Below, piece by piece: positions 1,643 to 26,251 of a stretch of 38,648 bases of DNA. The stretch's first letter is position 1, and every line of letters starts with the position of its first letter. The notes below the pieces were generated by a model. The model saw only the letters and a program-made list of their open reading frames with translations, was not told the origin of the DNA and ran no database searches. This DNA is from Halorientalis persicus (GTDB taxonomy: Archaea > Halobacteriota > Halobacteria > Halobacteriales > Haloarculaceae), in assembly GCF_900110215.1 (NCBI RefSeq), contig NZ_FOCX01000029.1, forward strand, positions 1-38,648, read 5' to 3'. The position numbers and the translations under genes were made by a program.

Positions 1643-1656
1643 TTCCCTGCGGACAA

Positions 1657-1752: not shown

Positions 1753-3225
<1,473 letters not shown>

Positions 3226-7188: not shown

Positions 7189-7209
7189 TTTTTGGCGAAC
7201 CTAAAAATA
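7189..7209 (+). promoter_or_regulatory. TATA box overlapped by an iron-box-like palindrome
   Basis: TTTTTGGCGAACCTAAAAA at 7189-7207 is an imperfect inverted repeat (TTTTTrG...CyAAAAA), and its right half is part of the TATA-like CTAAAAATA (about 7200-7209). The ATG at 7239 is about 30 bp downstream, so the transcript is probably leaderless. The element resembles the boxes at 14601, 15814, 24989 and 25813-25868 in this window. Confidence 0.5.
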
Positions 7210-7238
7210 CAAGAGGCCCACGTACTGACGGGTACGTA

Positions 7239-7949: not shown

Positions 7950-7955
7950 ACGCGG

Positions 7956-8546: not shown

Positions 8547-8570
8547 ATCGGACACTGGTGACTCACCGGT

Positions 8571-11739: not shown

Positions 11740-13391
11740 GATGAGTCACCGGTTTCCTGTGAGAGGATGACGGCCATCGAGAGGCCGGAGACAACTACGA
11801 GGATCAGCGCCGGCACCGCGGCCTGCCCGTAGAAGCCCGCCTCCTGGACCGTCCAGATGTAGGTCACCAGGGTGTCGAACCCCAGCGGGCGGAGCATCAG
11901 CGTCGCGGGCAACTCCTTCATCGTCGTCAGAAAGACCAGGGCCGCACCGGCGGCGACCCCGGGGAGGATCAGCGGGAGCGTTACCGACCGGAAGGCGCTC
12001 AGTCGGGACCGCCCCAGCGTCTGTGCGGCCTCGACCAGCTCCCGGTCGACCTGCAGCGTCGAAGTCCGGATCGACCCGATCGCCTGGGGCATGAACCGGA
12101 CGACGTACGCGAACACGAGCATCGGAATGGTCTTGTAGAACAGCCCGACCACGTCGACGCCCGTCAGGTCCGCGAGCGCGGGTAACAGGTCCAGTCCGAA
12201 GCTGAGCAGGGCGATCGCCAGCACGATGCCCGGCGTCGCGTACCCGACGTAGGACGCGCGGTCGGCGAGCGCCGCCAGCCGAGAGTCCGTCCGGGCGGAC
12301 GCCATGGCGATGGGCAGCGCAACGACCACGGACGCTGCGGCGGCCAGCAGCGCAAGGTTCGCCGAGTTCCAGGCGTATTCCCAGGCGAACGCGACCTGTC
12401 CGGCCTCGTAACCCGGCCCGCCCTGCGTGAGCCACATCCCGAAGATGCCGATGGGCACGAGGATGGCGAGACCGAAGACGGCCACTGGGACCAGGAGCGC
12501 GGGATACTGCCACGCACCGAGGTCCAGGTCGACCGCGCCGCGGTTGCCCCCGCTCTCGTAGGCACCGGACTCGTCGGCGCCGATGCGGGACTCGATGGCG
12601 AGGATGACGGCCGTAACACCCAGCAACTGGAGCGAGAGGACCGCCGCGTAGTCCCGGGCGAAGGCGTTGTACTGCGCGTAGATGAATTGTGTGAACACCT
12701 CCACCCGCATGATATTGGGCGTTCCGAAGTCGGCCAGCGTGTAAAGTGCCACGAGCAGGGACCCGGCGGCGATGCCCGGGAGGATCTGTGGGATGGTGAC
12801 CCGTTTGAGCGCCTCCCAGCGACCGGAGTTGAGCGTCTGGCCTGCCTCGACGAGCGTCCCGTCGAGCGAGAGAAGCGACGCCCGCGTCGTCAGAAACACG
12901 TAGGGGTACGTGTACAGCGTCAGCACGAACGCCGCGCCGGCGAAGCCGTACACGGAGGGGAGTGAACTGATACCGACGGGTGCCAACAGGTCCGCGAGTG
13001 CCCCGTTCGGACCGAACGCCGAGACGAACGCGAAAGCACCGAGGTAACTGGGCACCGCCAGCGGCAACGCACAGAGGATCGTCCAGAATCGCGAGAAGGG
13101 CAGGTCACCCTGCACTGTCAGCAGGGCGAGCGCCACACCGAGGACGATGCTCGCGCCCGTGACCACCGCCACGAGCGCGATGCTCCGGACCAGCACCGCA
13201 GTCGTGCGCGACTCGATCGCCAGTTCGACCGCCGTCCAGCCCAGGCCCGCCGCGTCGATGGCGAGCCAGCCGATGGGGAGGACGAGGACGGCGGCGATAG
13301 CCGCACCGAGCAGCGTCAGCCCGGTATCGACAGTGGAGGACCTGTCAGCGGATCGACCGCTCATCCGCTCGAGGTCCTCCTCGTTGGTCAT
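11736..13391 (-). CDS. ABC transporter permease, two fused domains (FbpB-like)
   Basis: 551 residues with about 12 transmembrane helices arranged as two homologous permease domains. Each domain has an EAA loop that docks the ATPase: EAGQTLNSGRWEALKRVTIP in the first half and EAAQTLGRSRLSAFRSVTLP in the second. This fused layout is typical of the ferric-iron/thiamine/phosphonate branch (FbpB, ThiP). The start overlaps the binding-protein stop by four bases, and its own stop overlaps the ATPase start by four bases, so the three genes form one tight unit. Iron is inferred rather than shown; thiamine would be the main alternative. Confidence 0.92.
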   Translation of the reverse strand: MTNEEDLERMSGRSADRSSTVDTGLTLLGAAIAAVLVLPIGWLAIDAAGLGWTAVELAIESRTTAVLVRSIALVAVVTGASIVLGVALALLTVQGDLPFSRFWTILCALPLAVPSYLGAFAFVSAFGPNGALADLLAPVGISSLPSVYGFAGAAFVLTLYTYPYVFLTTRASLLSLDGTLVEAGQTLNSGRWEALKRVTIPQILPGIAAGSLLVALYTLADFGTPNIMRVEVFTQFIYAQYNAFARDYAAVLSLQLLGVTAVILAIESRIGADESGAYESGGNRGAVDLDLGAWQYPALLVPVAVFGLAILVPIGIFGMWLTQGGPGYEAGQVAFAWEYAWNSANLALLAAAASVVVALPIAMASARTDSRLAALADRASYVGYATPGIVLAIALLSFGLDLLPALADLTGVDVVGLFYKTIPMLVFAYVVRFMPQAIGSIRTSTLQVDRELVEAAQTLGRSRLSAFRSVTLPLILPGVAAGAALVFLTTMKELPATLMLRPLGFDTLVTYIWTVQEAGFYGQAAVPALILVVVSGLSMAVILSQETGDSS

Positions 13392-14596
13392 GGGGAGACG
13401 TTTGCCGATTCCATCAACTCGATGGTGTCTTGCACGTTCGATAGCCGCGAGAGGTCGATGTCCGGCGGGCTGAGCTCACCGACAGTCGGCAGGTCACCGA
13501 CGGGCTCGACGCCCTCGATCATCGGATAGGAGAAACTGACCGTCGCGAAGAACTCCTGGGCCTCCGCCGACAGCAGGTGGCGGACGAAGTTGTCGACCAG
13601 TTCGCCCTTGTCGGTGCCCTTGATCTTCATCGCACCGGAGATGTTGACGAGGGCACCGGCGTCGCCCTCGGTGAACGCGAGTTCGAGCGGCGCGTTGGGG
13701 CGCTGGTTCTTGACCCGCAAGGCGTAGTAGTGGTTCGCGAATCCGGCCGCTAGCGATCCGTTGGCGACGTTCTGGGAGACGGCGTACTCGTTGCCGTACC
13801 GCTCGGTTCCGGCCTCGCGCATATCGACCAGCCACTGGCGCGTCGTCTCCTTATTTTGGATGAGTCGCATCGCGGTCACGAACGACTTGAACGCGCCGTA
13901 AGTCGGGGCCCAGCCCATCGTCCCCTGGAGCGCGCTCGACTCCGGGAACTGCTGGACCTTGTTCGGGATGTCCGACGCACTCAGGCGGTTCGTGTTGTAC
14001 GGGACGGCCCGTGCGCGACCCGCGACGCCGGCCCAGGCGTTGTCGTCACCGACGAACTGGGCGTTCCCGACGGGCGCAACAGCCTCGTCCGAGAGCGATT
14101 CGTAGGCGTCGTTGTCCGCGACGTAGCCCAGTGAACTGGCGTCGATGGACCAGAACATATCGGCCTGCGACGCGCCTGCGTTGACCTCCTCGACGATACT
14201 CTGGGCCAGCGAAGCCGAGTCGTTGCTGCTGGGCTGGACGGAGAAGTCCGGGTAGATGGATTCGAGCTTGTTGATGAGGTTGGTGTAGATGCCACCCTCG
14301 CCCCCGCCGATGTAGAGGGCGAGGTCACCTTCGAGGTCCGGTAGATCGTTGATCGACGTGCCGCCGGGGTACGGGCGACCCTGTGCCAGTCGCCCGGAGC
14401 CACGGAAGTTGCCTTCGACCAGCGGTCCGGTCCCCCGGAAGTCCGAGACGTTCGCGTTCTGGGGCGTACTGTTGCCGCCGTCGTCACTGAACATCCCGAA
14501 ACAGCCGGCCACGGACGCGGTCCCCAGGACCGCACCGCCCTGCAGGAGCCGCCGTCGTGACACACTCCGTCCGTGAGAGTCGACTTCGTCTTCCAT
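13388..14596 (-). CDS. ABC transporter substrate-binding lipoprotein, probable iron (FbpA-like)
   Basis: 402 residues from the ATG at 14596. An N-terminal Tat signal (SRRRLLQG, 13-20) leads into a lipobox SVAGC with Cys32, so the mature protein is lipid-anchored outside the cell, as is usual for haloarchaeal binding proteins. The body has the two-lobed periplasmic-binding pattern of the Fe3+/thiamine/spermidine group (for example SGAMKIKGTDKGELVDNFVRHL near the C-terminus). It is the first gene of the leftward transporter operon. Its promoter contains a perfect 20-bp palindrome between TATA and start, suggesting repression by a DtxR-type metalloregulator when iron is sufficient. Confidence 0.9.
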   Translation of the reverse strand: MEDEVDSHGRSVSRRRLLQGGAVLGTASVAGCFGMFSDDGGNSTPQNANVSDFRGTGPLVEGNFRGSGRLAQGRPYPGGTSINDLPDLEGDLALYIGGGEGGIYTNLINKLESIYPDFSVQPSSNDSASLAQSIVEEVNAGASQADMFWSIDASSLGYVADNDAYESLSDEAVAPVGNAQFVGDDNAWAGVAGRARAVPYNTNRLSASDIPNKVQQFPESSALQGTMGWAPTYGAFKSFVTAMRLIQNKETTRQWLVDMREAGTERYGNEYAVSQNVANGSLAAGFANHYYALRVKNQRPNAPLELAFTEGDAGALVNISGAMKIKGTDKGELVDNFVRHLLSAEAQEFFATVSFSYPMIEGVEPVGDLPTVGELSPPDIDLSRLSNVQDTIELMESANVSP

Positions 14597-14600
14597 ATAT

Positions 14601-14630
14601 GTTTTAGGCCGGCCTAAAACACTTATACTT
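14601..14630 (-). promoter_or_regulatory. Iron transporter promoter with perfect 20-bp palindromic operator
   Basis: GTTTTAGGCCGGCCTAAAAC at 14601-14620 is a perfect palindrome. It lies four bases upstream of the ATG at 14596 and directly downstream of a TATA-like AAGTATAAGT (minus strand, 14621-14630). The operator therefore covers the expected transcription start of a leaderless mRNA, a classic repressor position. The TTAGGC/GCCTAA half-sites resemble those of DtxR/Idr/SirR-type metalloregulators. Confidence 0.8.
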
Positions 14631-14636
14631 GCCGGT

Positions 14637-15800
14637 TCAGTCGTCTGCAGTCGCTGGCGCGTGTTCCGTGACCGAGCCGGGGCGAATGTGTTCGAGACAG
14701 GAGAGCCAATCCTGCATGAACTCCCCGCAGTAGTTGAGGAACGCGGCGTTCTCGTAGTCGAAGTCGCCGTCGGCGAGGGCGTCGGCCATCGCGGCGAACA
14801 CACCGGCGTACGTGTCGGCGTCGTCGCCCACTTCGTCGATGATCTCCCAGACGTGTTCGTTCAGCTCCAGTCCGGGAACCTCGTTGTTCAGGTCCGAAAA
14901 CGTCGAGCGCGGTGCCTTGTTGTGTTCACAGAGCGGGTTCCCGTTGACGATCCGCTTGTCCAGCACGTCACAGGCCCGCTTGAGGAACAGGCCGCTCCAG
15001 ATGTCGTCGAACCGGCCAACGTCCCACTCGTTTTCGTCCATCGGCAACTGGTAGAACGCGGGGATGACCTCCCGGCGGAAGGCGAGATTCATGGAACAGA
15101 CAGTGAGGTAGTTGCCCCGTTCGGCGACGAAGTTGCCCTCGTAGTCGTCGGTCGAGGTCCGAGTCTGAGCCTGGCCCTGGAGGTCGCCGTCCATCAGGAT
15201 GCGCACCGCGTCGAGGTCGGGAACGTTCGTCCAGAGGCCCTGAGAGGCCACGACGTCGTCGATCTCGACGTCCTCGGTCTCGACCTCCTCGTCCATCGCG
15301 CTGTAGGGATACCCACGTGGGTAGAGCCCGTGTTCGTCGACGTTCTGGTAGAGGACGTTCACCCAGCGCTCGTCCGATCCGACCGACTCGATAGTGCCTT
15401 CGTAGGCGAGGTTCTCGAAGTGGCTCCCGAAGAAGTCGAAGTCGGGGTGGGGGAGCGTGTCGTCGTCGATGAAAAAGCCGTACTCGAAGTCGTGCGCCCA
15501 CATATACAGCAGGCCGAAACTCGTCTGAGCGTGGCTGGCTTCCGGGATCAGGTGGTTGTACTCCGGGACCCCCTGCGCTTCGAACCACTCCTCGCGGGCG
15601 CTCCCGTCGAAGACGCGGCCGTCGACGCCTTCCTCGTCGAGCATCGCCTGCATCTCGTCGGTGTCACAGAAGTCCTCCGTGACCAGCACCACGTGGAGCC
15701 GGTCCAGGTCGAAGTCGTGATCCCGCGCGTTCTCGAAGTACGTCCGCATACACTCGAACTCCCGAATCGTCGGCACGATCACACAAACGTCTCCACTCAT
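14637..15800 (-). CDS. RGP/GT75-like protein ('alpha-1,4-glucan-protein synthase' type)
   Basis: 387 residues. GDVCVIVPTIREFECMRTYF (3-22) opens a GT-A-like nucleotide-sugar fold, and YGFFIDDDTLPHPDFDFF (107-124) contains a DDD metal-binding motif. This corresponds to the motif of plant reversibly glycosylated proteins/UDP-arabinopyranose mutases (GT75). Further matches are scattered (WSGLFLKRACD), and haloarchaeal members are commonly labelled alpha-1,4-glucan-protein synthase. The biochemical activity in archaea is not established. It lies upstream of the iron transporter on the same strand, with that operon's own promoter between them, and has an iron-box-like element over its own promoter. 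Confidence 0.75.
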   Translation of the reverse strand: MSGDVCVIVPTIREFECMRTYFENARDHDFDLDRLHVVLVTEDFCDTDEMQAMLDEEGVDGRVFDGSAREEWFEAQGVPEYNHLIPEASHAQTSFGLLYMWAHDFEYGFFIDDDTLPHPDFDFFGSHFENLAYEGTIESVGSDERWVNVLYQNVDEHGLYPRGYPYSAMDEEVETEDVEIDDVVASQGLWTNVPDLDAVRILMDGDLQGQAQTRTSTDDYEGNFVAERGNYLTVCSMNLAFRREVIPAFYQLPMDENEWDVGRFDDIWSGLFLKRACDVLDKRIVNGNPLCEHNKAPRSTFSDLNNEVPGLELNEHVWEIIDEVGDDADTYAGVFAAMADALADGDFDYENAAFLNYCGEFMQDWLSCLEHIRPGSVTEHAPATADD

Positions 15801-15813
15801 TTCTTATCCGTTC

Positions 15814-15832
15814 TCTTTAGGCCTCCCAAAAA
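15814..15832 (-). promoter_or_regulatory. Degenerate iron-box-like element at the RGP-like gene promoter
   Basis: On the minus strand TTTTTGGGAGGCCTAAAGA lies 14-32 bp upstream of the ATG at 15800 and overlaps the AT-rich stretch that would be its TATA box. One half (GGCCTAAA) matches the perfect palindrome at 14601; the other (TTTTTGGG) is degenerate. The remaining ~200 bp to the next gene holds a TATA-like CTGTATAAGG at about 15906-15915, a possible promoter for the rightward reductase gene, and no coding sequence I can support. Confidence 0.4.
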
Positions 15833-16030
15833 TAACTGTCGTGTCTTCCCGGCGAGTGGGAACCGACCACAGGAGATCATTATACACTACCGATTTTGAT
15901 TAACGCTGTATAAGGGGAACTATTATCTGCCAGTGCATGGGCAAGACTACGTGAAGACAGGGGTGTGGCCACACGAAGTCGCGAGGTCGACAGAGAGGGT
16001 TGGACATGGCCACGCCGCAAATAACTAACC

Positions 16031-16771
16031 ATGCTCGAAAATCAGACCTGTGTGGTAACCGGTGCATCACGAGGTATCGGCCGCGGCATCGCAGAGGAGT
16101 TGGGCCGTCACGGGGCGAACGTCGTCGTCAACTACCGGACCTCGGAGGCGGCGGCGCACGAGGTCGCGGACCAGATCGAAGCGGATGGCGGGAACGCCGT
16201 CCCGTTGCAGGCCGACGTGGCCGACCAGGACGAGGTCGACGCGATGGCCGAGCGGGTGACGGAACTGTACGGACCGGCCGACGTGCTGGTCAACAACGCG
16301 GGGATCACCATCGACAAGAAGTTCGAGAACATGACCAAAGACGACTGGGAGACGGTGATGGACGTGAACCTCGGCGGCGTGTTCAACGCGACCAACGCCT
16401 TCTTCGAGGATATCAAGGCCGCCGACGAGGGCCGTCTCGTCAACATCTCCTCGGTCGTCGGTCAGCAGGGCAACTACGGCCAGGCCAACTACGCCGCCAC
16501 GAAGTCCGGCCTCTTCGGGTTCACCCGAACGCTGGCGCTCGAACTCGCATCGACGGGGTCGACCGCCAACTGCGTCGCCCCAGGGTTCGTGGAGACCGAT
16601 ATGCTCGAAGACGTGCCCGAGCGCGTCCAGCAGAAGATCCTCGATCGGATTCCACTCAATCGGTTCGCGACGGTCGACGACGTGGCCGGCATCGTCAGGT
16701 TCCTCGCGAGCCGGGACTCCAGTTACATGACCGGCCAGGTCCTGGCCGTCAACGGCGGCATGGAGTGGTAA
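16031..16771 (+). CDS. phaB: Short-chain dehydrogenase, probable acetoacetyl-CoA reductase (PhaB/FabG)
   Basis: 246 residues, classical SDR. The cofactor motif is TGASRGIG (10-17), NNAG (88-91) follows, and catalytic residues are Asn113, Ser140/141, Tyr154 and Lys158 (YAATK). The C-terminal GQVLAVNGGMEW is typical of FabG/PhaB. It reduces 3-ketoacyl substrates with NADPH. In haloarchaea lacking bacterial fatty-acid synthesis, the FabG-like enzymes next to PHA-precursor genes act as acetoacetyl-CoA reductases for PHB/PHBV. The immediate downstream gene, one base after the stop, is propionyl-CoA carboxylase pccB, and a beta-ketothiolase lies 4 kb further. The PhaB call is inferred from this context and remembered similarity. 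Confidence 0.85.
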   Translation: MLENQTCVVTGASRGIGRGIAEELGRHGANVVVNYRTSEAAAHEVADQIEADGGNAVPLQADVADQDEVDAMAERVTELYGPADVLVNNAGITIDKKFENMTKDDWETVMDVNLGGVFNATNAFFEDIKAADEGRLVNISSVVGQQGNYGQANYAATKSGLFGFTRTLALELASTGSTANCVAPGFVETDMLEDVPERVQQKILDRIPLNRFATVDDVAGIVRFLASRDSSYMTGQVLAVNGGMEW

Positions 16772-16772
16772 C

Positions 16773-18356
16773 ATGAGCCAGCAAGAGGAAGAGGCGTCCG
16801 ACCAGGCAGACGAACAGTCACCGGTCGAGGAACTACGCGAACGCCGCCGCGAAGCGGAACTCGGCGGCGGCGAAGCGCGCATCGAGCGCCAGCACGAGAA
16901 AGGTAAGATGACCGCCCGCGAGCGGGTCGACTACCTGCTGGACGACGGCACCTTCTGTGAAGTCGACGCGTTCGTCGAACACCGTGCCCAGTCGTTCGGG
17001 ATGGACGAGAAGACGTTCCCCGGCGACGCGGTCGTCACCGGCTACGGCGAGGTCAACGGCCGGAAACTCTTCGTCTTCGCTCACGACTTCACCGTCCTCG
17101 GTGGCTCGGTCGGCGAAGTCGTCGCCGACAAGATTTGCAAGGTGATGGACAAGGCCATCGAGAACGGCGTTCCCGTGGTCGGCCTGAACGACTCCGGCGG
17201 CGCGCGCATCCAGGAGGGCGTCGATTCCCTCGTCGGGTTCGCGAAGATCTTCAACCGAAACACCGAGGCCTCTGGCCTCATCCCGCAGATCTCGGCGATC
17301 ATGGGCCCGTGTGCCGGCGGTGCGACCTACTCGCCCGCGCTGACCGACTTCACGTTCATGGTCGAGGACACGAGCCATATGTTCATCACTGGCCCGGACG
17401 TGATCGAGACGGTCACCGGCGAGCAGGTCTCCAAGGAGGAACTCGGCGGCGCCAAGACCCACGCCACCAAGTCCGGCGTCGCCCACTTCGCGGAGCGCTC
17501 CGAGGAGGAAGCGCTGGACGACATCCGCAGACTGCTCTCCTATCTCCCCCAGAACAACATGGCGGACCCGCCGCGGGTTCAGCCCTGGGACGATCCGACC
17601 CGAACCTGTGACGACCTCGTCGACATCGTACCCGAGGAACCGCGCAAGCCCTACGACATGAACGACGTGATCGGGCGGATCGTCGACGAGGATTCCTTTT
17701 TCGAGGTCCACGACGGGTTCGCGCGCAACGTCGTCACCGGCTTCGGCCGCCTCGACGGCCGCGTCGTCGGCGTCGTCGCCAACCAGCCCCGCGTTTCCGC
17801 CGGAACCCTCGACATCGACGCCTCCGAGAAGGCCGCCCGGTTCGTCCGCTTCTGTGACTCGTTCAACGTCCCCATCGTCACGCTGGTGGACGTGCCCGGG
17901 TTCATGCCCGGCACCGATCAGGAACACAACGGCATCATCCGCCGGGGTGCCAAGCTGATCTACGCCTACGCAGAGGCGACCGTCCCGCTCATGTCGGTCG
18001 TCGTCCGGAAGGCCTACGGCGGGGCCTACATCGTCATGTCCTCGAAGTTCCTGGGGAGCGACGTGAACTACGCCTGGCCCGGCGCGGAGATGGCCGTGCT
18101 GGGGCCCCGCGGTGCAGTCAACATCCTCTATCGCAAGGAGATCGCCAACGCCGACGACCCCGACGCCAAACGCCAGGCGTTGATGGACGACTTCCGCGAG
18201 GAGTTCGCCCATCCCTACGGGCCGGCCAAACGCGGCTATCTCGACGACGTGATCGAGCCACAGAACACGCGCAAGCGCCTGATCGACGACCTGGAACTGC
18301 TCGAACGCAAGCGCGAGGACACGCCGCCCAAAGACCACGGCAACATCCCGCTATGA
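16773..18356 (+). CDS. pccB: Propionyl/acetyl-CoA carboxylase carboxyltransferase subunit
   Basis: 527 residues, the full length of biotin-dependent carboxyltransferase subunits. It transfers carboxyl from carboxybiotin to propionyl-CoA, giving methylmalonyl-CoA. Visible signatures are VGLNDSGGARIQEGVDSLVG (CoA-binding oxyanion region, about 130-150), ISAIMGPCAGGATYSPALTD, and in the C-terminal half VDVPGFMPGTDQEHNGIIRRGA. The start is one base after the reductase stop and the end overlaps pccX by four bases, so they form an operon. PccA (biotin carboxylase plus BCCP) is not in the window. In PHBV-producing haloarchaea this enzyme is reported to set the propionyl-CoA supply. Confidence 0.94.
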   Translation: MSQQEEEASDQADEQSPVEELRERRREAELGGGEARIERQHEKGKMTARERVDYLLDDGTFCEVDAFVEHRAQSFGMDEKTFPGDAVVTGYGEVNGRKLFVFAHDFTVLGGSVGEVVADKICKVMDKAIENGVPVVGLNDSGGARIQEGVDSLVGFAKIFNRNTEASGLIPQISAIMGPCAGGATYSPALTDFTFMVEDTSHMFITGPDVIETVTGEQVSKEELGGAKTHATKSGVAHFAERSEEEALDDIRRLLSYLPQNNMADPPRVQPWDDPTRTCDDLVDIVPEEPRKPYDMNDVIGRIVDEDSFFEVHDGFARNVVTGFGRLDGRVVGVVANQPRVSAGTLDIDASEKAARFVRFCDSFNVPIVTLVDVPGFMPGTDQEHNGIIRRGAKLIYAYAEATVPLMSVVVRKAYGGAYIVMSSKFLGSDVNYAWPGAEMAVLGPRGAVNILYRKEIANADDPDAKRQALMDDFREEFAHPYGPAKRGYLDDVIEPQNTRKRLIDDLELLERKREDTPPKDHGNIPL

Positions 18357-18667
18357 GCCGGGCCGAACACGACATGGATACCGAGGACGAACTCCTCGAA
18401 GTCGATCTGGATGCCCTGCTCGCGAGGCTGGAGTTCGAGACGACCGTGCCGACCCAGCGGGAGGCGGCCGCCGTGGCGGCGGCCATCGCGACTCACCGGA
18501 CAGACCGCGCGGTCGCGGCCGCCGAGGCCGCCGCCGAGAGCGAACCAGAGAGAGTGCCGGAGTGGAAGCTCGCGAGTCGACTTCGATCCACCGGGGAGAA
18601 TCCACGTCGTCGGCCCCGAAAGATCGAGCGCGGACGCGAATGGCGGGCCGCGGCGCGGTCGCTGTAG
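18353..18667 (+). CDS. pccX: Acyl-CoA carboxylase small subunit PccX (epsilon-like)
   Basis: 104 residues; the ATG overlaps the pccB stop (ATGA). The N-terminal half is acidic (DTEDELLEVDLDALL), then VPTQREAAAVAAAIATHRT (32-50), an Ala-rich helix, and EWKLASRLRS (70-79), ending in an Arg-rich tail. The location matches PccX, the small third subunit described for Haloferax propionyl-CoA carboxylase. The pattern of a short 'xxExAAvxAxxA' helix, a linker, then a Trp-containing W-x-x-x-x-R segment resembles the actinobacterial carboxylase epsilon subunit (AccE). That likeness is my inference. Confidence 0.8.
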   Translation: MSRAEHDMDTEDELLEVDLDALLARLEFETTVPTQREAAAVAAAIATHRTDRAVAAAEAAAESEPERVPEWKLASRLRSTGENPRRRPRKIERGREWRAAARSL

Positions 18668-18670
18668 GTC

Positions 18671-18859
18671 GTGGTCGATCTCGCCCCGGATTCCGCGATG
18701 TTCGCAGTCACCACGGTCAGTCTGTCCGTCGCCATCTGGATCGGGATCGAACTGTTCCTGTTCGATCAGTTTCGCTGGACGAACGCCCTGTCCGGAGCCG
18801 CGTGCGGCATCGCACTCGTCCTCGTAAACCGCTGGATGCACGAAACGACCGACAGATAG
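18671..18859 (+). CDS. Small two-helix membrane protein
   Basis: 62 residues from GTG at 18671, four bases after the pccX stop (a later in-frame ATG would shorten it). Two hydrophobic segments are visible: FAVTTVSLSVAIWIGIELFLF and LSGAACGIALVLV, joined by a short loop DQFRWTN, with the charged tail RWMHETTDR. It probably ends the reductase-pccB-pccX transcription unit. No family recognised; an accessory role at the membrane can only be guessed from position. Confidence 0.55.
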   Translation: MVDLAPDSAMFAVTTVSLSVAIWIGIELFLFDQFRWTNALSGAACGIALVLVNRWMHETTDR

Positions 18860-18887
18860 CGGCCCGCCAGTGGTTGCACTTCGTCGC

Positions 18888-19463
18888 TCATCCTGACAGC
18901 ACTGCGTCTGCCGTCACCACCGTTGCGAACTCACCGTCGAGATGCGCCAGCGCGGACCGGTGAACTCGCTCGGGCGGGATCGCTTCGCCGTCGAACTCGC
19001 GGTCGAACGTGGCCGTCGCGTCCGCGACCAGCAAGACCTGGTACCCGCGATTCTCGGCCATCCGGGTCGTGGTCGAGACGCAGTGATCGGTCGTCAAGCC
19101 TGCGATGACGAGTTGCTCGACCCCGCGCTCGTCGAGCCAGTCGTCGAGGGCGGTGCCCACGAAGGCACCGTTCACTCGCTTCGTGACGACGTGCTCGTCG
19201 TCGAGCGGTGCCAGTTTGGATTCGAACGCGAAGCCCGGTTCGCCGCGTCTGAGCGGCGAGTCCGGTTCCGTCGAGTCGTGGCGGACGTGGGCGACGGGCC
19301 GGCCAGTCTCCCGCCACGCGGTGAGCAGATCCGCTGCCCGCTGTTCGGCGTCGGGGTTGTTTCGATCGCCCCACGCGGGGTCGTCGAAGCCCTGCTGGAA
19401 GTCCACGAGGACGAGCACCGCGTCGTCGGCGACGGTCGCCGACCGCTTTTCAATCGGCGGCAT
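18888..19463 (-). CDS. Isochorismatase-family cysteine hydrolase
   Basis: 191 residues, alpha/beta hydrolase of the isochorismatase/nicotinamidase superfamily. The catalytic triad is visible: Asp21 (VLVDFQ), Lys95 (TKRVNGAF) and Cys128 (TTDHCVSTT). The family cleaves amides or enol ethers (nicotinamide, N-carbamoylsarcosine, isochorismate); the substrate cannot be told here. No strong nicotinamidase metal-site signature was evident. Its start overlaps the end of the YqcI/YcgG gene by 14 bp, so the two are co-expressed leftwards. Confidence 0.88.
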
Positions 19464-20259
19464 ACCCGTCCGGGAGGGTGTTCGGGGCTTTCGGGTGGTC
19501 GCGGGTCACGTTGATCGGGCACTCGTCGGGGGCCTGCTCCGGGTCCGAGGAGAGCATATACTGGGGCCACTCGCGGTCGCCCTCGACGCCGTAGTCGCCG
19601 ATGTCGGCGTGGGGACAGACGCCGTCGTAGTCCTCGATGCGGTCCTGGATGACCTCACGGGCTCGCTGGCCCGCGTCGGTGTCGTGAGTGATCCCCTCGA
19701 ACAGCGACCGGGGCTGGAACGTGATCTCCAGGCCGATGGGGCAGTACCGACTCTTGCGCGTGTCGTAGAAGGGCGCACGACAGGTCGGGAACATCGATTC
19801 GCCGCCGAAGGAGAACTCCCAGTATGGGTCGTCGGGGTCGGTCGGCACGTCCTCGGGCCACGGTTCCGGGTCGTGGACGTGGAGGAACTGCAGGACGTGC
19901 CAGAGGCGTTCGTGGTACTCCTGCTCGGTGAGAGGAACCTCGGGCGGTTTGAAGAAGGTGACCAGCGACGCCTGCTCGGAGTGGTCCCGATAGGTGTCGA
20001 GGTACTCGAGCAGTGTGTTCCGAAAGCGCAGGAGTGCGTCCTTGTCGGTCATCGAGGAGCAGAGCGTGTAGAGCGGGTCGCCGTTCTCGACGGACTCGAC
20101 GCCGAAAAAGCAGGGGAACGGCGAGCCGTTGCGTTCGCCGAGCAGGCCGTCCCTGAAACTCTCCCAGTGGTCGATCCCCCACTCGGGAAGGTCGCCGTCG
20201 GCCGCACGGTCCGCGAGCGTCGCCTGATCCAGCAGGACCTCGACTCCCGGTTCGTTCAT
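19450..20259 (-). CDS. YqcI/YcgG family protein
   Basis: 269 residues from the ATG at 20259; an upstream in-frame extension of 16 residues has no RBS and looks unrelated. Characteristic elements are [28 protein letters not shown], and [21 protein letters not shown] followed by ITFQPRS. These match the conserved core of the YqcI/YcgG family, related to heme-oxygenase-like or Cys-rich bacterial proteins of uncertain function. Several cysteines (FPC, TLC, TC, YC, VCP, ECP) could bind a cofactor. It overlaps the isochorismatase-like gene and follows the MOSC gene by 44 bp, suggesting a three-gene unit. Confidence 0.72.
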
Positions 20260-20303
20260 ATCTCCAGTTGGCTCCAGGGAAATTTGAAACTTGAGTTTCG
20301 TCC

Positions 20304-20768
20304 TCACTCCTCGGCCGGCCCGACGGCATCGCCCTCGGCGATGGCTCCGGACTCGACGATGCGGGCTCTGAGCCCGCCGCGGTGGACCAGCGCTTCCTCC
20401 ACGTCGGGCAGGCCAGTGTGCTGTTCCAGATACGAACAGGGTTCACACAGTTCGACGCCCTCGCAGACGGCGTCGCCCACGTGAAACCGGGCGTCGACAA
20501 GGTGGTTCAGCGCGACGCCGCGGGTCGTGACGTTCCGGCGGTGGATCCCCGGTTCGAGGTCGATATCGTAGTCGCGTTCGGCGGCCGCCAGGGCTTCGGC
20601 CTCGATGAGCGTGATGGCACGGTCCTCGCCGCCGCCGAAGGTACCTTCGCCCTCGAAGTAGCGGTCGCCGTCTAGTCCCTCGCCGGCGACGGCCCGGACG
20701 GTCTCGACGCGTTCGGGCGGCGCCCCGGGTGTCGGTGCGACGTGGATGTACTCGACGGTTCCGTTCAT
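20304..20768 (-). CDS. MOSC domain protein
   Basis: 154 residues forming a single MOSC domain (beta-strand-rich; fused to MOCO sulfurases and present in mARC/YiiM). Diagnostic elements are GLDGDRYF near 31-38, HRRNVTTRGVAL (76-87) and a CEPC motif whose first conserved cysteine is expected to carry sulfur. The family handles sulfur for molybdenum cofactors or metal-sulfur centres. First gene of the leftward MOSC–YqcI–isochorismatase unit, divergent from the ketothiolase gene with 122 bp between. Confidence 0.88.
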   Translation of the reverse strand: MNGTVEYIHVAPTPGAPPERVETVRAVAGEGLDGDRYFEGEGTFGGGEDRAITLIEAEALAAAERDYDIDLEPGIHRRNVTTRGVALNHLVDARFHVGDAVCEGVELCEPCSYLEQHTGLPDVEEALVHRGGLRARIVESGAIAEGDAVGPAEE

Positions 20769-20855
20769 ATCGCCCAGTTGTGAACGGGCTTACAAGACAC
20801 CATCGGGACGCGGCGCTCGCTCGGGAACATCGGTCGAATACCACGCTTTCAGCCA

Positions 20856-20865
20856 GATTTACAAT
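20856..20865 (+). promoter_or_regulatory. Promoter of the ketothiolase operon
   Basis: ATTTACAATA is centred about 30 bp before the ATG at 20891, the normal TATA distance for a near-leaderless haloarchaeal mRNA. An AGGTGAT directly before the ATG could act as a very short Shine-Dalgarno sequence. Confidence 0.5.
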
Positions 20866-20890
20866 ACCGCCCGTTGCAGTTGCAGGTGAT

Positions 20891-22045
20891 ATGGACAGGG
20901 AGGTTGCCATCATCGGCGGGTCGATGACGAAGTTCGGCCAGCGAGACGCCTGGATACGCGAGTTGCTCTCCCAGGCCGGCGAAGCGTGTCTGGAAGACGC
21001 CGGCGTCGAGCCCGACGACGTGGACCACGTCTACGTGTCGAACATGGCCAGCGGGGAGTTCGAGGGCCAGGGCGGGATCATGAACGCGGTGGCCCACGAT
21101 CTCGGGCTACTGCCGGCCTACAGCCAGCGCATCGACCAGACCAGTTCAAGCGGTGGCGCGGGGATGTACGCGGCCTGGCAGTCGATCAAATCAGGGGCCA
21201 GCGACATGACCCTGCTCGTGGGCGGCGAGAAGATGACCCACAAGGGCACCGGCGACGCGACCGACATCATCGCGTCGATCACACATCCCGCCGAGTACAA
21301 ACACGGCGTGACGCTCCCCTCCTTCGCGGGGATGACGGCGCGACACTACCTCGAAAAGTTCGACGCGCCCCGGGAGAGTCTCGCGAAGGTCGCCGTCAAG
21401 AACCACGAGAACGGCACCCGCAATCCGAAGGCGCAGTTCCAGAAGGAGATCACCGAAAAGAAAGCCCTCGAGAGTCCGATCATCGCCGACCCGCTCCGAC
21501 TGTACGATTTCTGTCCGATCACCGACGGGAGCGCGGCCCTCATGTTCTGCCCGGTCGAGGTGGCCGAGGAGTACGCCGACGACTACGCTGTGGTCTCGGG
21601 CATCGGCGGCGCGACCGACACCCACGTCGTCCACGAACGTGACGACCCGACGACGATGGGCGGCGTCGTCGATTCGGGCGAGGAAGCATACGAGATGGCC
21701 GGCATCGGCCCGGACGATATCGACGTGGCCGAACTCCACGATATGTTCACGATCCTCGAATTCCTCCAGATGGAGGGGCTGGACTTCGCCGAGACGGGCG
21801 AGGCCTGGAAACACGTCGAGGAAGGCCGAACGGCCATCGACGGCGACCGCCCGATCAACACCTCCGGCGGGCTCAAATCGAAGGGCCATCCGCTGGGGGC
21901 CAGCGGTGTCGCACAGGGGTACGAGATCTACGAGCAACTGGTCGGTGAAGCCGGCGAGCGCCAGGTCGACGCCGAGACGGGGCTGGCCTGCAACGTCGGT
22001 GGCTTCGGGAACTGCGTCATCACCACGATCATGGAGGCACGATAA
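20891..22045 (+). CDS. Haloarchaeal-type beta-ketothiolase catalytic (alpha) subunit
   Basis: 384 residues from ATG 20891. It is a thiolase-fold protein of the SCP2/archaeal branch, condensing two acyl-CoAs into 3-ketoacyl-CoA or the reverse. Where classical thiolases have the nucleophile in CxSG, this one has TSSSGGAG (84-91), so Ser85 takes the Cys position. His283 (ELHDMF) and His333 (KGHPLGASG) are in place. This agrees with the Ser-His-His triad reported for haloarchaeal PhaA/BktB enzymes. The downstream gene overlaps by one base and encodes the Zn-ribbon/OB-fold partner. Likely role: PHB/PHBV monomer supply with the reductase at 16031; PhaA versus BktB is undecided. Confidence 0.87.
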   Translation: MDREVAIIGGSMTKFGQRDAWIRELLSQAGEACLEDAGVEPDDVDHVYVSNMASGEFEGQGGIMNAVAHDLGLLPAYSQRIDQTSSSGGAGMYAAWQSIKSGASDMTLLVGGEKMTHKGTGDATDIIASITHPAEYKHGVTLPSFAGMTARHYLEKFDAPRESLAKVAVKNHENGTRNPKAQFQKEITEKKALESPIIADPLRLYDFCPITDGSAALMFCPVEVAEEYADDYAVVSGIGGATDTHVVHERDDPTTMGGVVDSGEEAYEMAGIGPDDIDVAELHDMFTILEFLQMEGLDFAETGEAWKHVEEGRTAIDGDRPINTSGGLKSKGHPLGASGVAQGYEIYEQLVGEAGERQVDAETGLACNVGGFGNCVITTIMEAR

Positions 22046-22416
22046 TGTCGATGGACGCCATCCGCTGTCCGAACGGTCACGTGAAGTACCCCACGCACCC
22101 GCGCTGTCCGGAGTGTGGCGAGGAACCGGTCGAGACGATCGACCTGAGCGACCGCACGGGCGAGGTCGTCACCTGGACGGAGAGCACCGCGACGCCGCCG
22201 GGCGTCCGCGAGCCGAACGTCCTGGCGTTCGTCGAGTTCGAGGTCGACGGCACGCCGGTCCGCGCGCTGGGGCAGATCGCCGACAACGCCGACGTGGAGA
22301 CCGGCGACGAGGTGGAACCGGTGTACGCCGACGAACTCCGCGAACCGGGTGTCGGGCTCAAGCCTGCCGACGCGGATCAGGAGTGGGACGGGTACCGATT
22401 CCGGCTGTCCCAGTGA
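22045..22416 (+). CDS. Ketothiolase beta subunit: Zn-ribbon plus DUF35 OB-fold
   Basis: 123 residues. The N-terminal rubredoxin-like zinc ribbon has CPNGH (8-12) and CPECG (21-25); it is followed by an OB-fold of the DUF35 type (TWTESTATPPGVREPNVLAFVEFEVDGTPVRALGQI...). The ATG overlaps the thiolase stop (TAATG), so the pair is translationally coupled. In archaeal thiolase complexes the DUF35 protein bridges catalytic subunits and shapes the CoA site, and haloarchaeal ketothiolases are reported to need it. The fourth zinc ligand pair is incomplete: the first knuckle is CPNGH rather than CxxC, so His may serve as ligand. Confidence 0.88.
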   Translation: MSMDAIRCPNGHVKYPTHPRCPECGEEPVETIDLSDRTGEVVTWTESTATPPGVREPNVLAFVEFEVDGTPVRALGQIADNADVETGDEVEPVYADELREPGVGLKPADADQEWDGYRFRLSQ

Positions 22417-22461
22417 GGGCGTCCGTCCGAACTGCGAACTCGCGTCGAAACGAGGGGCGGT

Positions 22462-22956
22462 TCAGATGGGGGATCGGTTCGCACGCGGCTGTCGTGGCTG
22501 GTTCCAGGGCCGAGACTGGCCGGGAACCAGCCCGCTCTCGGCTTCGAGCATCGAGATGCCGTCGAGGACTGTTCTGATTCCGGTCTCGGAACTGTGGGGA
22601 TAGAGTGCGATCAGGTCGTCCTCGTCGTACAACGCCAGACAGACGACGGGGAGGACAGCCGTTCTGTAGTGGCTGTCGGTGAAGCTGTTGTGACAGTCGT
22701 GGCGCTCGAAGGCGGGCGCGAGTGCGACGCCGTGGGCGTCGGCCCAGGCCTCGAACTCCCGGCAGAGCGCGAACTCACGACGGGCCTGGGTATCCCCGAC
22801 CGTCACGCGGTGGGGCCAGCGCTGGACGGACAGGTCGGCGATGACGCCCGCAGCGGCCAGCGCCTGGAGGCGACCCAGTATCCGGGACTGTTCGGTCGTG
22901 GCCGCTATCGGGACCGAATCGCGAAGGAACAGCTCCGCTCGTGTGATACGAGTCAT
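22462..22956 (-). CDS. Haloarchaeal conserved protein, paralogue A (HTH-annotated family)
   Basis: 164 residues from the ATG at 22956 (MTRITRAELFLRDS). It shares order and spacing with the neighbour at 23050: R-x-E-L-(F/Y)-x-R-S/D, a helical RLQ/EQLA..G segment, FALCREFEAWADAHGVALAPAFERHDC versus SAYDRFQDWADETGVSLEPFFDTRSC, LPVVCLALYDEDDLIALYPHS, and a VLDGI/DCL helix. Haloarchaea have many of these, sometimes annotated as HTH proteins; DNA binding is not evident to me. Function unknown. Confidence 0.7.
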   Translation of the reverse strand: MTRITRAELFLRDSVPIAATTEQSRILGRLQALAAAGVIADLSVQRWPHRVTVGDTQARREFALCREFEAWADAHGVALAPAFERHDCHNSFTDSHYRTAVLPVVCLALYDEDDLIALYPHSSETGIRTVLDGISMLEAESGLVPGQSRPWNQPRQPRANRSPI

Positions 22957-23049
22957 GGTTGCAGTGTGGACGCCGGCAGTGGGCTTAGCTGTTTGGGAAT
23001 CTGTCACACACCGATACGTACCGGGAACGGCGGGGCGTCCGGAAGGGGC

Positions 23050-23550
23050 TCAGTCCGACACTTCCGCGAGATTGAGCTGTTCGGTCGCGTCGGATTCGAG
23101 CGGGTCGGTGACTCGGCCCGGGGCGGCTTCGATAGCGTGGAGACAGTCGAGGACGGAGCGGGAGCCGTCGTTGGTCGAGTGGGGATACACGGCGTCGAGG
23201 TCTCCATCGCGGTAGACGGCGAGACAGAGCGCAGGCAGAACCAGCCACTCCCCTCGCTCCCCGGACTCCATGGAGTAACAGGAGCGGGTATCGAAGAACG
23301 GTTCGAGCGACACGCCGGTCTCGTCCGCCCAGTCCTGAAAACGATCGTACGCCGAAAGCTCGTCGCGACCGCTCGACAGCGGCACTTTCTTGTCCCAGGT
23401 CCGAATCGCCACGTCGTCGACGTGACCGCCGTCGGCGAGTTGCTCGAGCCGTCCCGCCACCGCGTCCCGTCGCCGTGAGGCGACCTCGGGTAGCGAAGAC
23501 CGAGCGTACAGTTCGACCCGTGTCCCAGCGGGACTCCCGTTACCGATCAT
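23050..23550 (-). CDS. Haloarchaeal conserved protein, paralogue B (HTH-annotated family)
   Basis: 166 residues from the ATG at 23550. It is paralogous to the gene at 22462 on the same strand, 93 bp apart, so a tandem duplication is likely. Shared features are the RVELYARSS N-terminus, RLEQLADGGHVDDVAIRTW, DWADETGVSLEPFFDTRSC, LPALCLAVYRDGDLDAVYPHS and VLDCLHAIEA. Conserved Cys and His residues are spread through the core. An AT-rich stretch ATAAATAAAAC near 23575-23585 is a good TATA candidate. The following 117 bp is non-coding. Role unknown; small soluble regulator or sensor is a guess. Confidence 0.72.
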   Translation of the reverse strand: MIGNGSPAGTRVELYARSSLPEVASRRRDAVAGRLEQLADGGHVDDVAIRTWDKKVPLSSGRDELSAYDRFQDWADETGVSLEPFFDTRSCYSMESGERGEWLVLPALCLAVYRDGDLDAVYPHSTNDGSRSVLDCLHAIEAAPGRVTDPLESDATEQLNLAEVSD

Positions 23551-23667
23551 TCCTACTATCGAATCACGGTATGAAATAAATAAAACCTGCTATGTTAGGC
23601 TTTGTTGATACTGTTACCCACAGTACGGCGGGGGTGACAGCGGCCGGGTGCAGCGAGCGTGGTGCCG

Positions 23668-24249
23668 TCAGTTCGACCCGGATTCGTCCGACCCGTCGTC
23701 GCTGTCACCGTCGTCGAGGTCGTCCTTGATCGACTGGAGTTCGGCGTCGACGTCGACCGGCACTGAGGCGCTGGTCGCCGGGTCCGACTCGCGGTCTGTG
23801 GATTCGGTTTCGGCGGCGAGGCGGTCGTCGATCTCGTCACGGAGCGACCGCGCTTCCGCGAGGACACGCGCTGCCTCGTCGTCGGTGGGGCGTCCCTCGA
23901 CGGCGTCCTGCACGTCGGCTAGGACGTCGTCCAGCTTCCGGACGGTGGTCCGGCTGAGCTGGACGGCCCGGTCGCGGACGGCCGTGTCGCGCTCGTCGGT
24001 CACACTGCGATCGGGGTCGGCGAGCCGGATCGCCCGCTGGAGCAGTCGGAGCGCGCGGACGTTCGTCTCTAGAATCAGGATCGCCCCCGGAATCGCCACC
24101 TCGTCTGTGAATCGGAGCAGTTCTCGCGGCGAGGGTGGGCGGAGTCGTCGTCGCCGACCCGGTTCGAGTTCGCGCTGGAGGTCCCGAAGCGAGCGTGCGA
24201 GGTCCGCCGCCAGCCGCGCGAGGTCCTCGTCGCTGGCCGAATCGCTCAT
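23668..24249 (-). CDS. Haloarchaeal conserved hypothetical, helical and acidic
   Basis: 193 residues from the ATG at 24249. It is mostly helical with heptad-like stretches (LARLAADLARSLRDLQRELE at 10-29, and VRKLDDVLADVQDAVEG), so coiled-coil association is likely. It contains a central moderately hydrophobic segment EVAIPGAILILETNVRALRLLQRAIRL that could be amphipathic or membrane-touching. The C-terminal 40 residues are very acidic and disordered (DDLDDGDSDDGSDESGSN). No known domain recognised. It is divergent from the gene at 24388, with about 140 bp between starts. Confidence 0.68.
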   Translation of the reverse strand: MSDSASDEDLARLAADLARSLRDLQRELEPGRRRRLRPPSPRELLRFTDEVAIPGAILILETNVRALRLLQRAIRLADPDRSVTDERDTAVRDRAVQLSRTTVRKLDDVLADVQDAVEGRPTDDEAARVLAEARSLRDEIDDRLAAETESTDRESDPATSASVPVDVDAELQSIKDDLDDGDSDDGSDESGSN

Positions 24250-24352
24250 ACTCCCCGTACGGCGCGTCGGGTCTTAAGCGCGGGCCATCACTGCCGACGG
24301 GTCGCCACGTCGTCACGGCCGATCGGTGCATTTCGAGCGCCGTAATCCGTGC

Positions 24353-24362
24353 AAATATTATA
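24353..24362 (+). promoter_or_regulatory. TATA box of the gene at 24388
   Basis: AAATATTATA lies 26-35 bp before the ATG at 24388 in an otherwise GC-rich area, consistent with a leaderless transcript and supporting that ATG over an in-frame one at 24349. Confidence 0.55.
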
Positions 24363-24387
24363 CCATTGGGCGCGTAAATTACTGTCA

Positions 24388-24972
24388 ATGAGCGCGAAAT
24401 CCGCGGCGGCGAAGGTACCCGGTGCGCTGTCGGGGCTCAAACGCCGTGGGGGTGGAATCCTCGTCGTTGGTGGAACCGACGGACAGCGACGGCTCTGTGG
24501 CCGGTTACTGGGGTCCTCCGAGCGGGAGCGAGTCGTCGTCGAGGCGACGGATTGCAGTCTGACGGCGGACTGTCCACACGAGGCGGCGGTGGTGCAGGGA
24601 CGGCCGGCCCAGCCCACAGCCTGCCGGGCCGGCGCAGTCCTGCAGTCGTCGTCGCTGGCCGACCGGGTGACCGAGGCCATCGACGTACACGGTCAGGGTC
24701 TAGCACCGGCGGAGTTGCGTGTCTGTCTCGGCCCGGTCGCGCCGGACACGCTCCAGTCCAGGTCGGTGTTTCTCGACGCCGTCCTCGAGGAGCTCGCCCG
24801 GACGAACGCGCTCGGTCACGTCCACGTCTCCGAGCCCTACGAGAGCGATCTCGTCCGCCGGCTGGAACCCCGCTTCGACGCCATCGTGGAAGTCCAAGAC
24901 GAGCCGCGACACCGACAGCGCTGGCACTTCCCCGACCACGGGGTCACTACCGACTGGATCGATTTAGGCTAA
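24388..24972 (+). CDS. Haloarchaeal RecA/KaiC-like degenerate NTPase-fold protein
   Basis: 194 residues starting MSAKSAAAKVPGALSGLKRRGGGILVVGGT. The opening hydrophobic strand ILVVGGTDGQRR sits where a P-loop would be, but no GxxxxGK(S/T) is present. Later segments LRVCLGPVAPDTLQSRSVFLDAVLEELARTNALGHVHVSEPY and FDAIVEVQDEPRHRQRWHFPDHGVTTDWIDLG resemble KaiC/RecA-superfamily proteins found in many haloarchaeal paralogues, often near signalling genes. The missing Walker A makes ATP hydrolysis unlikely. Role unknown. Confidence 0.65.
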   Translation: MSAKSAAAKVPGALSGLKRRGGGILVVGGTDGQRRLCGRLLGSSERERVVVEATDCSLTADCPHEAAVVQGRPAQPTACRAGAVLQSSSLADRVTEAIDVHGQGLAPAELRVCLGPVAPDTLQSRSVFLDAVLEELARTNALGHVHVSEPYESDLVRRLEPRFDAIVEVQDEPRHRQRWHFPDHGVTTDWIDLG

Positions 24973-24979
24973 CCAAAAC

Positions 24980-25004
24980 CCTTTTAGATTTAGGCCCGCC
25001 TAAG
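24980..25004 (+). promoter_or_regulatory. Iron-box-like palindrome at the promoter of the 56-aa gene
   Basis: TTAGGC at 24990-24995 and GCCTAA at 24998-25003 are exact inverted half-sites with a 2-bp centre, the same half-sites as in the perfect palindrome at 14601. The AT-rich CTTTTAGATT (24981-24990) is the probable TATA box, 23-32 bp from the ATG at 25013. The palindrome therefore sits between TATA and transcription start, where a bound repressor would block initiation. Confidence 0.7.
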
Positions 25005-25012
25005 GTCAGTCA

Positions 25013-25183
25013 ATGAGTCACGCGCCGGACACCGTCGACGACGCCGAGGCGACGGCCGACCCGGAAGACGATGCACCACTGATCAAGAGCCACAGGGCGA
25101 CCGACGAACGCACTGTGTTCACCGAGGACGGGAACACCGACGGCTGGATCGCGACGGATCTTACCGTCGAGTGCGAAGAATAA
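25013..25183 (+). CDS. 56-residue acidic haloarchaeal protein under an iron-box-like operator
   Basis: An ATG at 25013 opens a 56-codon frame ending TAA at 25181-25183. The protein begins MSHAPDTVDDAEATADP and ends DGNTDGWIATDLTVECEE. The RTVFTEDGNTDGWIATDLTVE segment looks like a small beta-structured unit seen in short haloarchaeal conserved proteins; I do not know the function. Support for reality: a TATA box at the leaderless distance, the palindromic operator, high acidity and codon use like its neighbours. Being short and operator-controlled, it could be an iron-responsive small protein. Confidence 0.7.
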   Translation: MSHAPDTVDDAEATADPEDDAPLIKSHRATDERTVFTEDGNTDGWIATDLTVECEE

Positions 25184-25232
25184 AACTGGATTTTCGCCGC
25201 ACGACTCGACGCGTTTCTCGGGCCGACCGGTT

Positions 25233-25778
25233 CTACTCGGCGCTCGTGTCGACCACGAGGGTGTCGTCTTCGAGGTAGTGGTCGAGGTGGTGAGCGTCGT
25301 CTTCGGTCTCGACGAGGATCTCACGCAGGATCTCGGCGGTAGCGTGATCGCCGAGTTCGGTCGCGAGTTCGATGTGCTCCCGGAGGTTCTCGATAATGTC
25401 GCCGTAGATCTCCAGGTCGTTTTTCAGTGAGGTGCGGATCGGGTACACGTCGCCGTCCTCGTGGGAGACGCCGGCCCGCTCCGAGAGGTTTGGCATACTC
25501 GCGACGGGCGTCCCGCCGATGGCCTGGAGACGCTCGGCGATCTCGTCGGCCGCGGCCTCGACGTTCTCGGCGGCCTCACCGAGGAAGATGTGGAGGTCGC
25601 GGAACTCCGCCCCCTCGACGTTCCAGTGGTGTTTGCGAAGCTGATGGTACAGAACGTACGCGTCCGCGAGGTCGTCGTTGAGCGCCTCGACGATCTGTTC
25701 CGCTTTCTCCTGGTCGAGCTGTAGCGCGTTCTCCTCGACTTCACCGAACTCTTTCCGGACAGTTTTCTCAGTGCTCAT
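25233..25778 (-). CDS. dpsA: DpsA ferritin-like iron-storage/DNA-protection protein
   Basis: 181 residues from the ATG at 25778, almost the length of Halobacterium DpsA. The Dps signature is clear: LRKHHWNVEGAEFRDLHIFL (48-67) followed by EAAENVEAAADEIAERLQAIGG. It includes His51 and nearby acidic residues that form the inter-subunit ferroxidase site. It forms a dodecameric shell that oxidises Fe(II) with peroxide and stores iron, protecting DNA. The promoter region carries three copies of the iron-box-like element plus a TATA box at 25803-25811, so iron control at transcription is strongly suggested. A longer upstream frame is spurious. Confidence 0.95.
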   Translation of the reverse strand: MSTEKTVRKEFGEVEENALQLDQEKAEQIVEALNDDLADAYVLYHQLRKHHWNVEGAEFRDLHIFLGEAAENVEAAADEIAERLQAIGGTPVASMPNLSERAGVSHEDGDVYPIRTSLKNDLEIYGDIIENLREHIELATELGDHATAEILREILVETEDDAHHLDHYLEDDTLVVDTSAE

Positions 25779-25802
25779 CTCGTGTAGAGAGTGGTTCCGC
25801 GG

Positions 25803-25868
25803 TATCATAAACTTTGGGTTCGCAAAACTATTTTTCGTAACCCAAAAGCCAATTTTGGCGAGCCGAAA
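25803..25868 (-). promoter_or_regulatory. dpsA promoter with three iron-box-like elements
   Basis: On the minus strand GTTTATGATACC places a TATA box at about 25803-25811, 25-33 bp from the dpsA ATG. Immediately upstream are three related elements (plus-strand reading): TTTGGGTTCGCAAAA at 25813-25827, TTTTTCGTAACCCAAAA at 25831-25847 and TTTTGGCGAGCCGAAA at 25853-25868. The first two are inverted copies of one another; the third is a near-perfect palindrome TTTTGGC-GA-GCCGAAA. All sites lie on the upstream (BRE) side of the TATA box, unlike the repressor-type positions at 14601 and 24990, which would fit activation rather than repression. Confidence 0.65.
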
Positions 25869-25879: not shown

Positions 25880-26251
25880 TCAGGAGCGGCTCAGGACCAT
25901 CGCTCGTTCGTCCTCGCCGATACTGGCGCCCGTTTCCCGTCGACACTGTTCCTCGTGGGCGTCCAGTACGGCGTGGAGGTCCGCCTCGGCGATGTCGAGC
26001 GCGTCGGCGAACTCGTCCCAGACGTGCGCGCGGAGGCGCAAGAAGTAGGTGTCGTCCGTTCGCTGGAGGACTGGCTGTTCGTGGAACTGCGAGCGCCACT
26101 CGTAGACGATGTTCTCGACACCCGGATTGTCCCGGATCTGTTGCTGGTGACGAGCCAGCAGGTCCCGGAGCGCCGCCTCGTCGAGGTCGTGGCGGCCGGC
26201 GACCGTAGCGAGCAGGTCGTCGTCGAAGGGGTCGAGCGAATCCCCGGTCAT
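25880..26251 (-). CDS. Haloarchaeal conserved hypothetical protein
   Basis: 123 residues from the ATG at 26251 (MTGDSLDPFDDDLL). Largely helical with the pattern LLATVAGRHDLDEAALRDLLARHQQQIRDNPGVENIVYEWRSQFHEQPVLQRTDDTY..., then HVWDEFADALDIAEADLHAVLDAHEEQ. No signal peptide or membrane segment. It resembles short haloarchaeal proteins of unknown function; I cannot assign a role. It lies upstream of dpsA on the same strand, and its stop at 25880 is only 12 bp from the dpsA iron-box cluster, so read-through into dpsA is possible. Confidence 0.7.
   Translation of the reverse strand: MTGDSLDPFDDDLLATVAGRHDLDEAALRDLLARHQQQIRDNPGVENIVYEWRSQFHEQPVLQRTDDTYFLRLRAHVWDEFADALDIAEADLHAVLDAHEEQCRRETGASIGEDERAMVLSRS

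Follow-up and report, generated by a model that had tools for sequence, protein, structure and literature searches.

Placement of iron boxes relative to the TATA box suggests iron activation of dpsA in Halorientalis persicus and its relatives

Introduction

The dpsA promoter of the haloarchaeon Halorientalis persicus carries iron boxes on the upstream side of its TATA box, whereas haloarchaeal iron-uptake genes are distinguished by a box downstream of TATA. This arrangement makes it probable that an Fe(II)-loaded regulator of the DtxR family acts as an activator of dpsA when bound upstream and keeps uptake genes off by blocking their promoters. Activation of dpsA is a plausible reading, favored by comparison across the whole order.

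The window analyzed here, 38,648 nucleotides in length, is an entire contig of a 4.87-Mb Halorientalis genome. Eight genomes of the genus contain a single dpsA homologue each, and the closest named relatives of DpsA occur in Halorientalis pallida (95%) and H. regularis (92%). At the start of the contig, about 1-3230 on the minus strand, the sequence looks by eye like a 23S rRNA, a tRNA and a 16S rRNA. The features that concern iron boxes are collected in Table 1, where the centers of D, M and P are distances from the TATA start.

Table 1. Coordinates in the window of dpsA, its promoter elements and other iron-box genes
Feature	Position	Strand	Description
dpsA, ferritin-like Dps protein	25233-25778	-	181 aa; ATG at 25778; PF00210, E 7e-32
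Predicted TATA box of dpsA	25805-25812	-	starts 34 bp 5' of ATG; same site in close Halorientalis relatives
P element	25813-25828	-	weak box; 2 mismatches to TTTNGGNNNNCCNAAA; center about -7; abuts TATA, overlaps BRE position
M element	25832-25847	-	1 mismatch to TTTNGGNNNNCCNAAA; center -27; register conserved across Halobacteria
D element	25853-25868	-	perfect box, 0 mismatches to TTTNGGNNNNCCNAAA; center -48
Gene of 56-aa protein	25013-25183	+	DUF7331 (PF24018)
Upstream box of 56-aa gene	24963-24978	+	center -10 from TATA-like CTTTTAGA (24981-24988)
Downstream box of 56-aa gene	24989-25004	+	1 mismatch; center +16
Substrate-binding protein of ABC importer	13388-14596	-	Pfam SBP_bac_8/SBP_bac_6
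ABC importer permease	11736-13391		Pfam BPD_transp_1
ABC importer ATPase	10582-11739		Pfam ABC_tran
Box of importer substrate-binding protein	14603-14618	-	perfect palindrome TTTAGGCCGGCCTAAA, between TATA (14622-14627) and ATG (14596)
Box of RGP-like protein gene upstream of importer	15816-15831	-	perfect; 15 bp 5' of ATG (15800)
Box of family-2 glycosyltransferase gene	7190-7205	+	perfect; 33 bp 5' of ATG (7239)

Iron boxes at the dpsA promoter

The dpsA promoter contains the palindrome of DtxR/IdeR-type iron boxes (TTAGG-N4-CCTAA or a close variant), with several boxes in front of the core promoter and the start itself left free, as in promoters of the IdeR-bfrB kind. On the coding strand, the gap in front of the gene holds D (TTTCGGCTCGCCAAAA), M (TTTTGGGTTACGAAAA), P (GTTTTGCGAACCCAAA), the TATA box (GTTTATGA) and the ATG, in that order, and the spacings of 21 bp between D and M and 20 bp between M and P each amount to about two helical turns. 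The original prediction had described three iron-box-like elements at this site; their coordinates were right, and D and M proved far above chance, while P alone was unconvincing. A weight matrix built from 34 boxes of genes other than dps (consensus TTTAGGCTAGCCTAAA) gave scores of 14.3 for D, 7.4 for M and -1.8 for P, and a best score that good was reached in 0.1%, 0.9% and 12.7%, respectively, of random stretches of the same make-up. D and M are thus real sites, and P is marginal when taken alone. Jointly, the three scores were matched in none of 4,000 such stretches; when the 110 bp upstream were shuffled 5,000 times with dinucleotide content preserved, three such sites arose once and the summed score was never reached. 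Given its weakness and its overlap with the BRE, P might even act as an inhibitory site.

The 5' neighbor of dpsA (25880-26251) runs in the same direction and ends at 25880, leaving a gap of 101 bp, so D, M and P can serve dpsA only. Sharing of the sites with a divergent promoter was ruled out, since the neighbor is co-directional and the gap has no second promoter. The end of this gene so close by, together with the 34-bp imperfect palindrome formed by M and P, would suit a transcription terminator or RNA structures of the 5' gene rather than operators. However, RNA folding was no better than that of shuffled sequences (z -0.66), and the register relative to TATA is kept even though the 5' gene varies, with a co-directional gene at 32 loci, a divergent one at 22 and none seen at 25. 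As its orientation differs between species, the elements belong to dps, and a hairpin or terminator was rejected as highly improbable.

Dps promoters across Halobacteria

The comparison was extended to 80 dps promoters from across Halobacteria, in 62 of which the TATA box starts at -34 or -35. A box with at most two mismatches is centered 25-32 bp upstream of TATA in 63 of the 80; the other 17 have no box within two mismatches at the -25 to -32 register, which counts against the activation reading. When anchored on TATA, a matrix trained without dps sites produced a single sharp peak at -28, with the best offset between -27 and -30 in 65 of the 80, and its best score was at least 8 in 67.5% of these promoters compared with 0.3% of shuffles. 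The promoters fall into two kinds. In the first (n=29; Halorubrum, Natrinema and others), a single strong and asymmetric box, TTTTAGGTCGTACGAAAAA, is combined with the BRE TTGATAA, while the box of the second, type II (n=51), is nearer to TTTTNGGNNNNCCAAAA. With Halorientalis left out, type II promoters show similarity peaks at -50 (z 5.9), -28.5 (z 16.9) and -8 (z 7.4). The peak at -50 is mostly an A-tract half-site, and that at -8, the position of P, consists of a T-tract and the BRE adenines, without the GG/CC core.

The half-site facing TATA differs from that of uptake genes, reading CCAAAA or CGAAAA in dps boxes as opposed to CCTAAA in uptake boxes; A at position 4 (TTTAGG) is present in only 4 of the 63 dps boxes, and C or T in 59. 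This rarity of TTTAGG would allow for a sister regulator with a slightly different preference. One alternative holds that dps boxes are read by a regulator other than that of the uptake boxes, such as a regulator of oxidative stress or a sister paralogue of the DtxR family, and it is compatible with activation. At least three DtxR-type proteins in the genome could supply such a reader, but the matrix built on uptake boxes still finds the dps sites, and D in the window scores like an uptake box (14.3). A separate regulator for dps is a tentative proposal.

Uptake promoters

Iron-uptake promoters were represented by 24 promoters of substrate-binding-protein genes, all of which have a box ending 2-7 bp 5' of the ATG and overlapping the start. 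In 13 of them, a second box lies about 30-37 bp further upstream and flanks TATA, so that the pair sandwiches the TATA box at about -18 and +17. This upstream box is found at -17 to -20, about 10 bp nearer TATA than the dps box. In several uptake promoters, automatic TATA calling took the box itself (TTTAGG) for TATA, and for these the distance to the ATG was used. A box downstream of TATA with at most one mismatch occurs in none of the 80 dps promoters versus 24 of the 24 substrate-binding-protein promoters, a complete separation whose Fisher value of 4e-24 is overstated because the species are related, and whose uptake promoters were picked for a perfect box near the start. The discriminator is the box downstream of TATA, not the boxes upstream.

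These results refine the original prediction, which set dpsA, with boxes on the BRE side, against the transporter and the 56-aa gene, with palindromes downstream of TATA. The transporter indeed has a single perfect box, placed between its TATA box and the ATG. The 56-aa gene has its downstream box as well, but also a second one upstream. Opposite placement holds for the downstream box, whereas a division into BRE side and downstream side is too simple, since 13 of the 24 uptake promoters and the 56-aa gene have an upstream box too. DUF7331 mini-proteins (50-60 aa) have an iron box near the start of their genes in four genera, and several of these genes adjoin dps.

The boxes might instead repress dpsA. 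In cells that are short of iron or unstressed, a regulator bound at P or M would keep TFB from the BRE, and its release under iron excess or peroxide stress would induce the gene. A precedent for such a model is the control of bacterial dps genes by PerR- or MntR-type regulators. P overlaps the BRE and abuts TATA, and the upstream box of uptake promoters (-17 to -20) shows that a box upstream need not go with activation. Nevertheless, the conserved site M at -28 is clear of both BRE and TATA, and in other genera the GG/CC core is missing from P. A metal-loaded repressor would also lower the storage protein in high iron, whereas DpsA of H. salinarum is down-regulated in low iron, as mentioned in PMC3600143 with reference to earlier work. 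Repression of dpsA is thus unlikely.

Iron regulon and candidate regulators

Genome-wide there are 15 perfect boxes, against none for the reversed pattern that served as a control. Five of the 15 lie in the 38.6-kb contig, where 0.12 would be expected (P about 9e-8), and several of those elsewhere precede genes of lipoprotein-type substrate-binding proteins, placing the motif before iron-uptake genes of the same genome. Boxes were counted in seven other haloarchaeal genomes, and in the five that were examined (Halorientalis marina, Halosimplex salinum, Haloferax denitrificans, Haloarcula argentinensis and Halobacterium bonnevillei) they precede the same families. Judged by these genes, the boxes form part of an iron regulon.

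The genes of dps, DUF7331, the RGP-like protein, the ABC importer and the family-2 glycosyltransferase lie together in an iron island, spanning 7190-25868 in the window, C1:2074282-2093876 in genome G001, C11:719098-736074 in G002 and C14:264467-282595 in G005. Its members mostly have their own box, and layout and spacing are similar in Halorientalis, Halosimplex and Haloarcula. Among the genes with iron boxes are one for a sugar-mutase-like protein and the one for the glycosyltransferase.

Among the DtxR-type proteins of the genome, a 143-aa protein on contig C45 and a 136-aa protein on contig C42 are candidate iron regulators. The short DtxR-like gene of C42 follows a siderophore-binding-protein gene (PF01497) in an operon with two perfect boxes at its promoter, separated by 36 bp, which implies that this regulator would itself be iron-repressed. 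On C45 (locus L003, 786-1839), the two-domain DtxR-like gene stands directly after the gene of a 166-aa protein that has no Pfam hit and looks ferritin-like by eye; no box within one mismatch was found nearby. A third protein, of 232 aa with a FeoA domain, is encoded on C70 next to a predicted membrane protein, which we take from its sequence to resemble UPF0016/Gdt1 manganese transporters, and it may be a manganese regulator. A 2024 study of TroR reportedly showed that, when iron is sufficient, this protein acts through a conserved motif to repress uptake and induce storage.

Box shift within Halorientalis and the ZIP-family transporter

D is perfect in all five of the closest Halorientalis genomes, where the mismatches in M number 1, 2 and 2 and exceed two in the remaining two genomes; a good M without D is found in three Halorientalis genomes that are more distant. 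Based on these eight genomes, the strong dpsA operator has shifted by 21 bp, from M to D, on the same face of the helix. This shift, along with the peaks at -50, -28.5 and -8, suggests that a spacing of about two turns is important. The imperfect M of the window (one mismatch), with more than two mismatches in two close relatives, counts against the activation reading.

A ZIP-family membrane transporter gene (PF02535), whose sequence is unrelated to dps, carries a box in the dps register. The gene lies on another contig of this genome (C50; locus L089, 640-1449, minus strand), and tblastn homologues have the box in 11 of 30 cases, all ending 47-52 bp 5' of the ATG, with centers at -27 to -29 from TATA where TATA was properly called. 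Such a dps-type register suggests that the transporter is switched on, not off, by iron, and it is possible that it acts as an exporter or detoxifier.

Proposed mechanism

We infer iron-dependent activation of dpsA from the placement of its boxes, the 5'/3' site rule of archaeal regulators, the IdeR-bfrB case and the fall of DpsA in low iron. The presumed regulator would be an iron regulator of the DtxR family with two domains, of the Idr/TroR type of haloarchaea, and D, M and P would be its operators. When Fe(II) is plentiful, metal-loaded dimers would occupy D and M, perhaps cooperatively, on the same DNA face two helical turns apart, and P might provide a weak third contact at the BRE. Dimers at about -28 and -48 would leave the core promoter (TATA, BRE and start) free and could help TBP and TFB to assemble, turning dpsA on. 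At uptake genes, with a box between TATA and the start and often a second just upstream of TATA, the loaded regulator would shut the promoter.

More speculatively, the spacing might amount to a quantized code, in which a DtxR-type box at about -28 or -48 (whole turns, same face) means iron activation, a sandwich at -18 and +17 means repression, and operators evolve by 21-bp jumps, as at dpsA of Halorientalis. If so, the ZIP-family transporter would be iron-induced and act in iron or manganese export or detoxification. If the spacing rule is true, sequence alone could tell, in hundreds of archaeal genomes, whether iron turns a gene on or off. Haloarchaea lend themselves to such a comparison: they use one 16-bp box at promoters defined by TATA, and two registers set storage apart from uptake across the order.

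Comparison with known systems

In Mycobacterium tuberculosis, IdeR acts as a repressor when its boxes cover the promoter, and as an activator of the ferritin gene bfrB through four upstream boxes; the TTAGG-N4-CCTAA unit binds one IdeR dimer, and IdeR-activated ferritin genes have several upstream boxes (PMC10317159). The two systems are alike in having several iron boxes 5' of a ferritin-like gene, one of them reaching the core promoter, in uptake genes with a box over the start and in the shared TTAGG-N4-CCTAA unit. They differ in that the dpsA promoter is of the archaeal TATA/BRE type, that its single-dimer boxes are about 21 bp apart as opposed to 19-bp double boxes, and that bfrB is activated mainly by relieving Lsr2. 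Even for IdeR, the way in which DtxR-family proteins activate genes is counted among the open questions (PMC10317159).

Within the archaea, DtxR-family control of iron genes exists in the same order, in the TroR/Idr/SirR network of Haloferax volcanii and in Idr1, Idr2, SirR and TroR of Halobacterium salinarum (PMC11349517, PMC6978704). OxsR of Haloferax volcanii, a member of the TrmB family, activates from a site 5' of BRE/TATA and represses from a 3' site (PMC9426492), and the same positional rule has been reviewed for the TrmB-family regulators TrmB, TrmBL1 and Tgr, including one of Halobacterium (PMC4158304). The likeness would lie in one archaeal regulator that activates from 5' of BRE/TATA and represses from 3'; protein family, motif and signal are different, and the haloarchaeal uptake genes described here often have boxes on both sides. 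The principle of dual regulation is already known from IdeR-bfrB, OxsR and TrmB, and dpsA would be an archaeal case of it with an unusually clear spacing rule.
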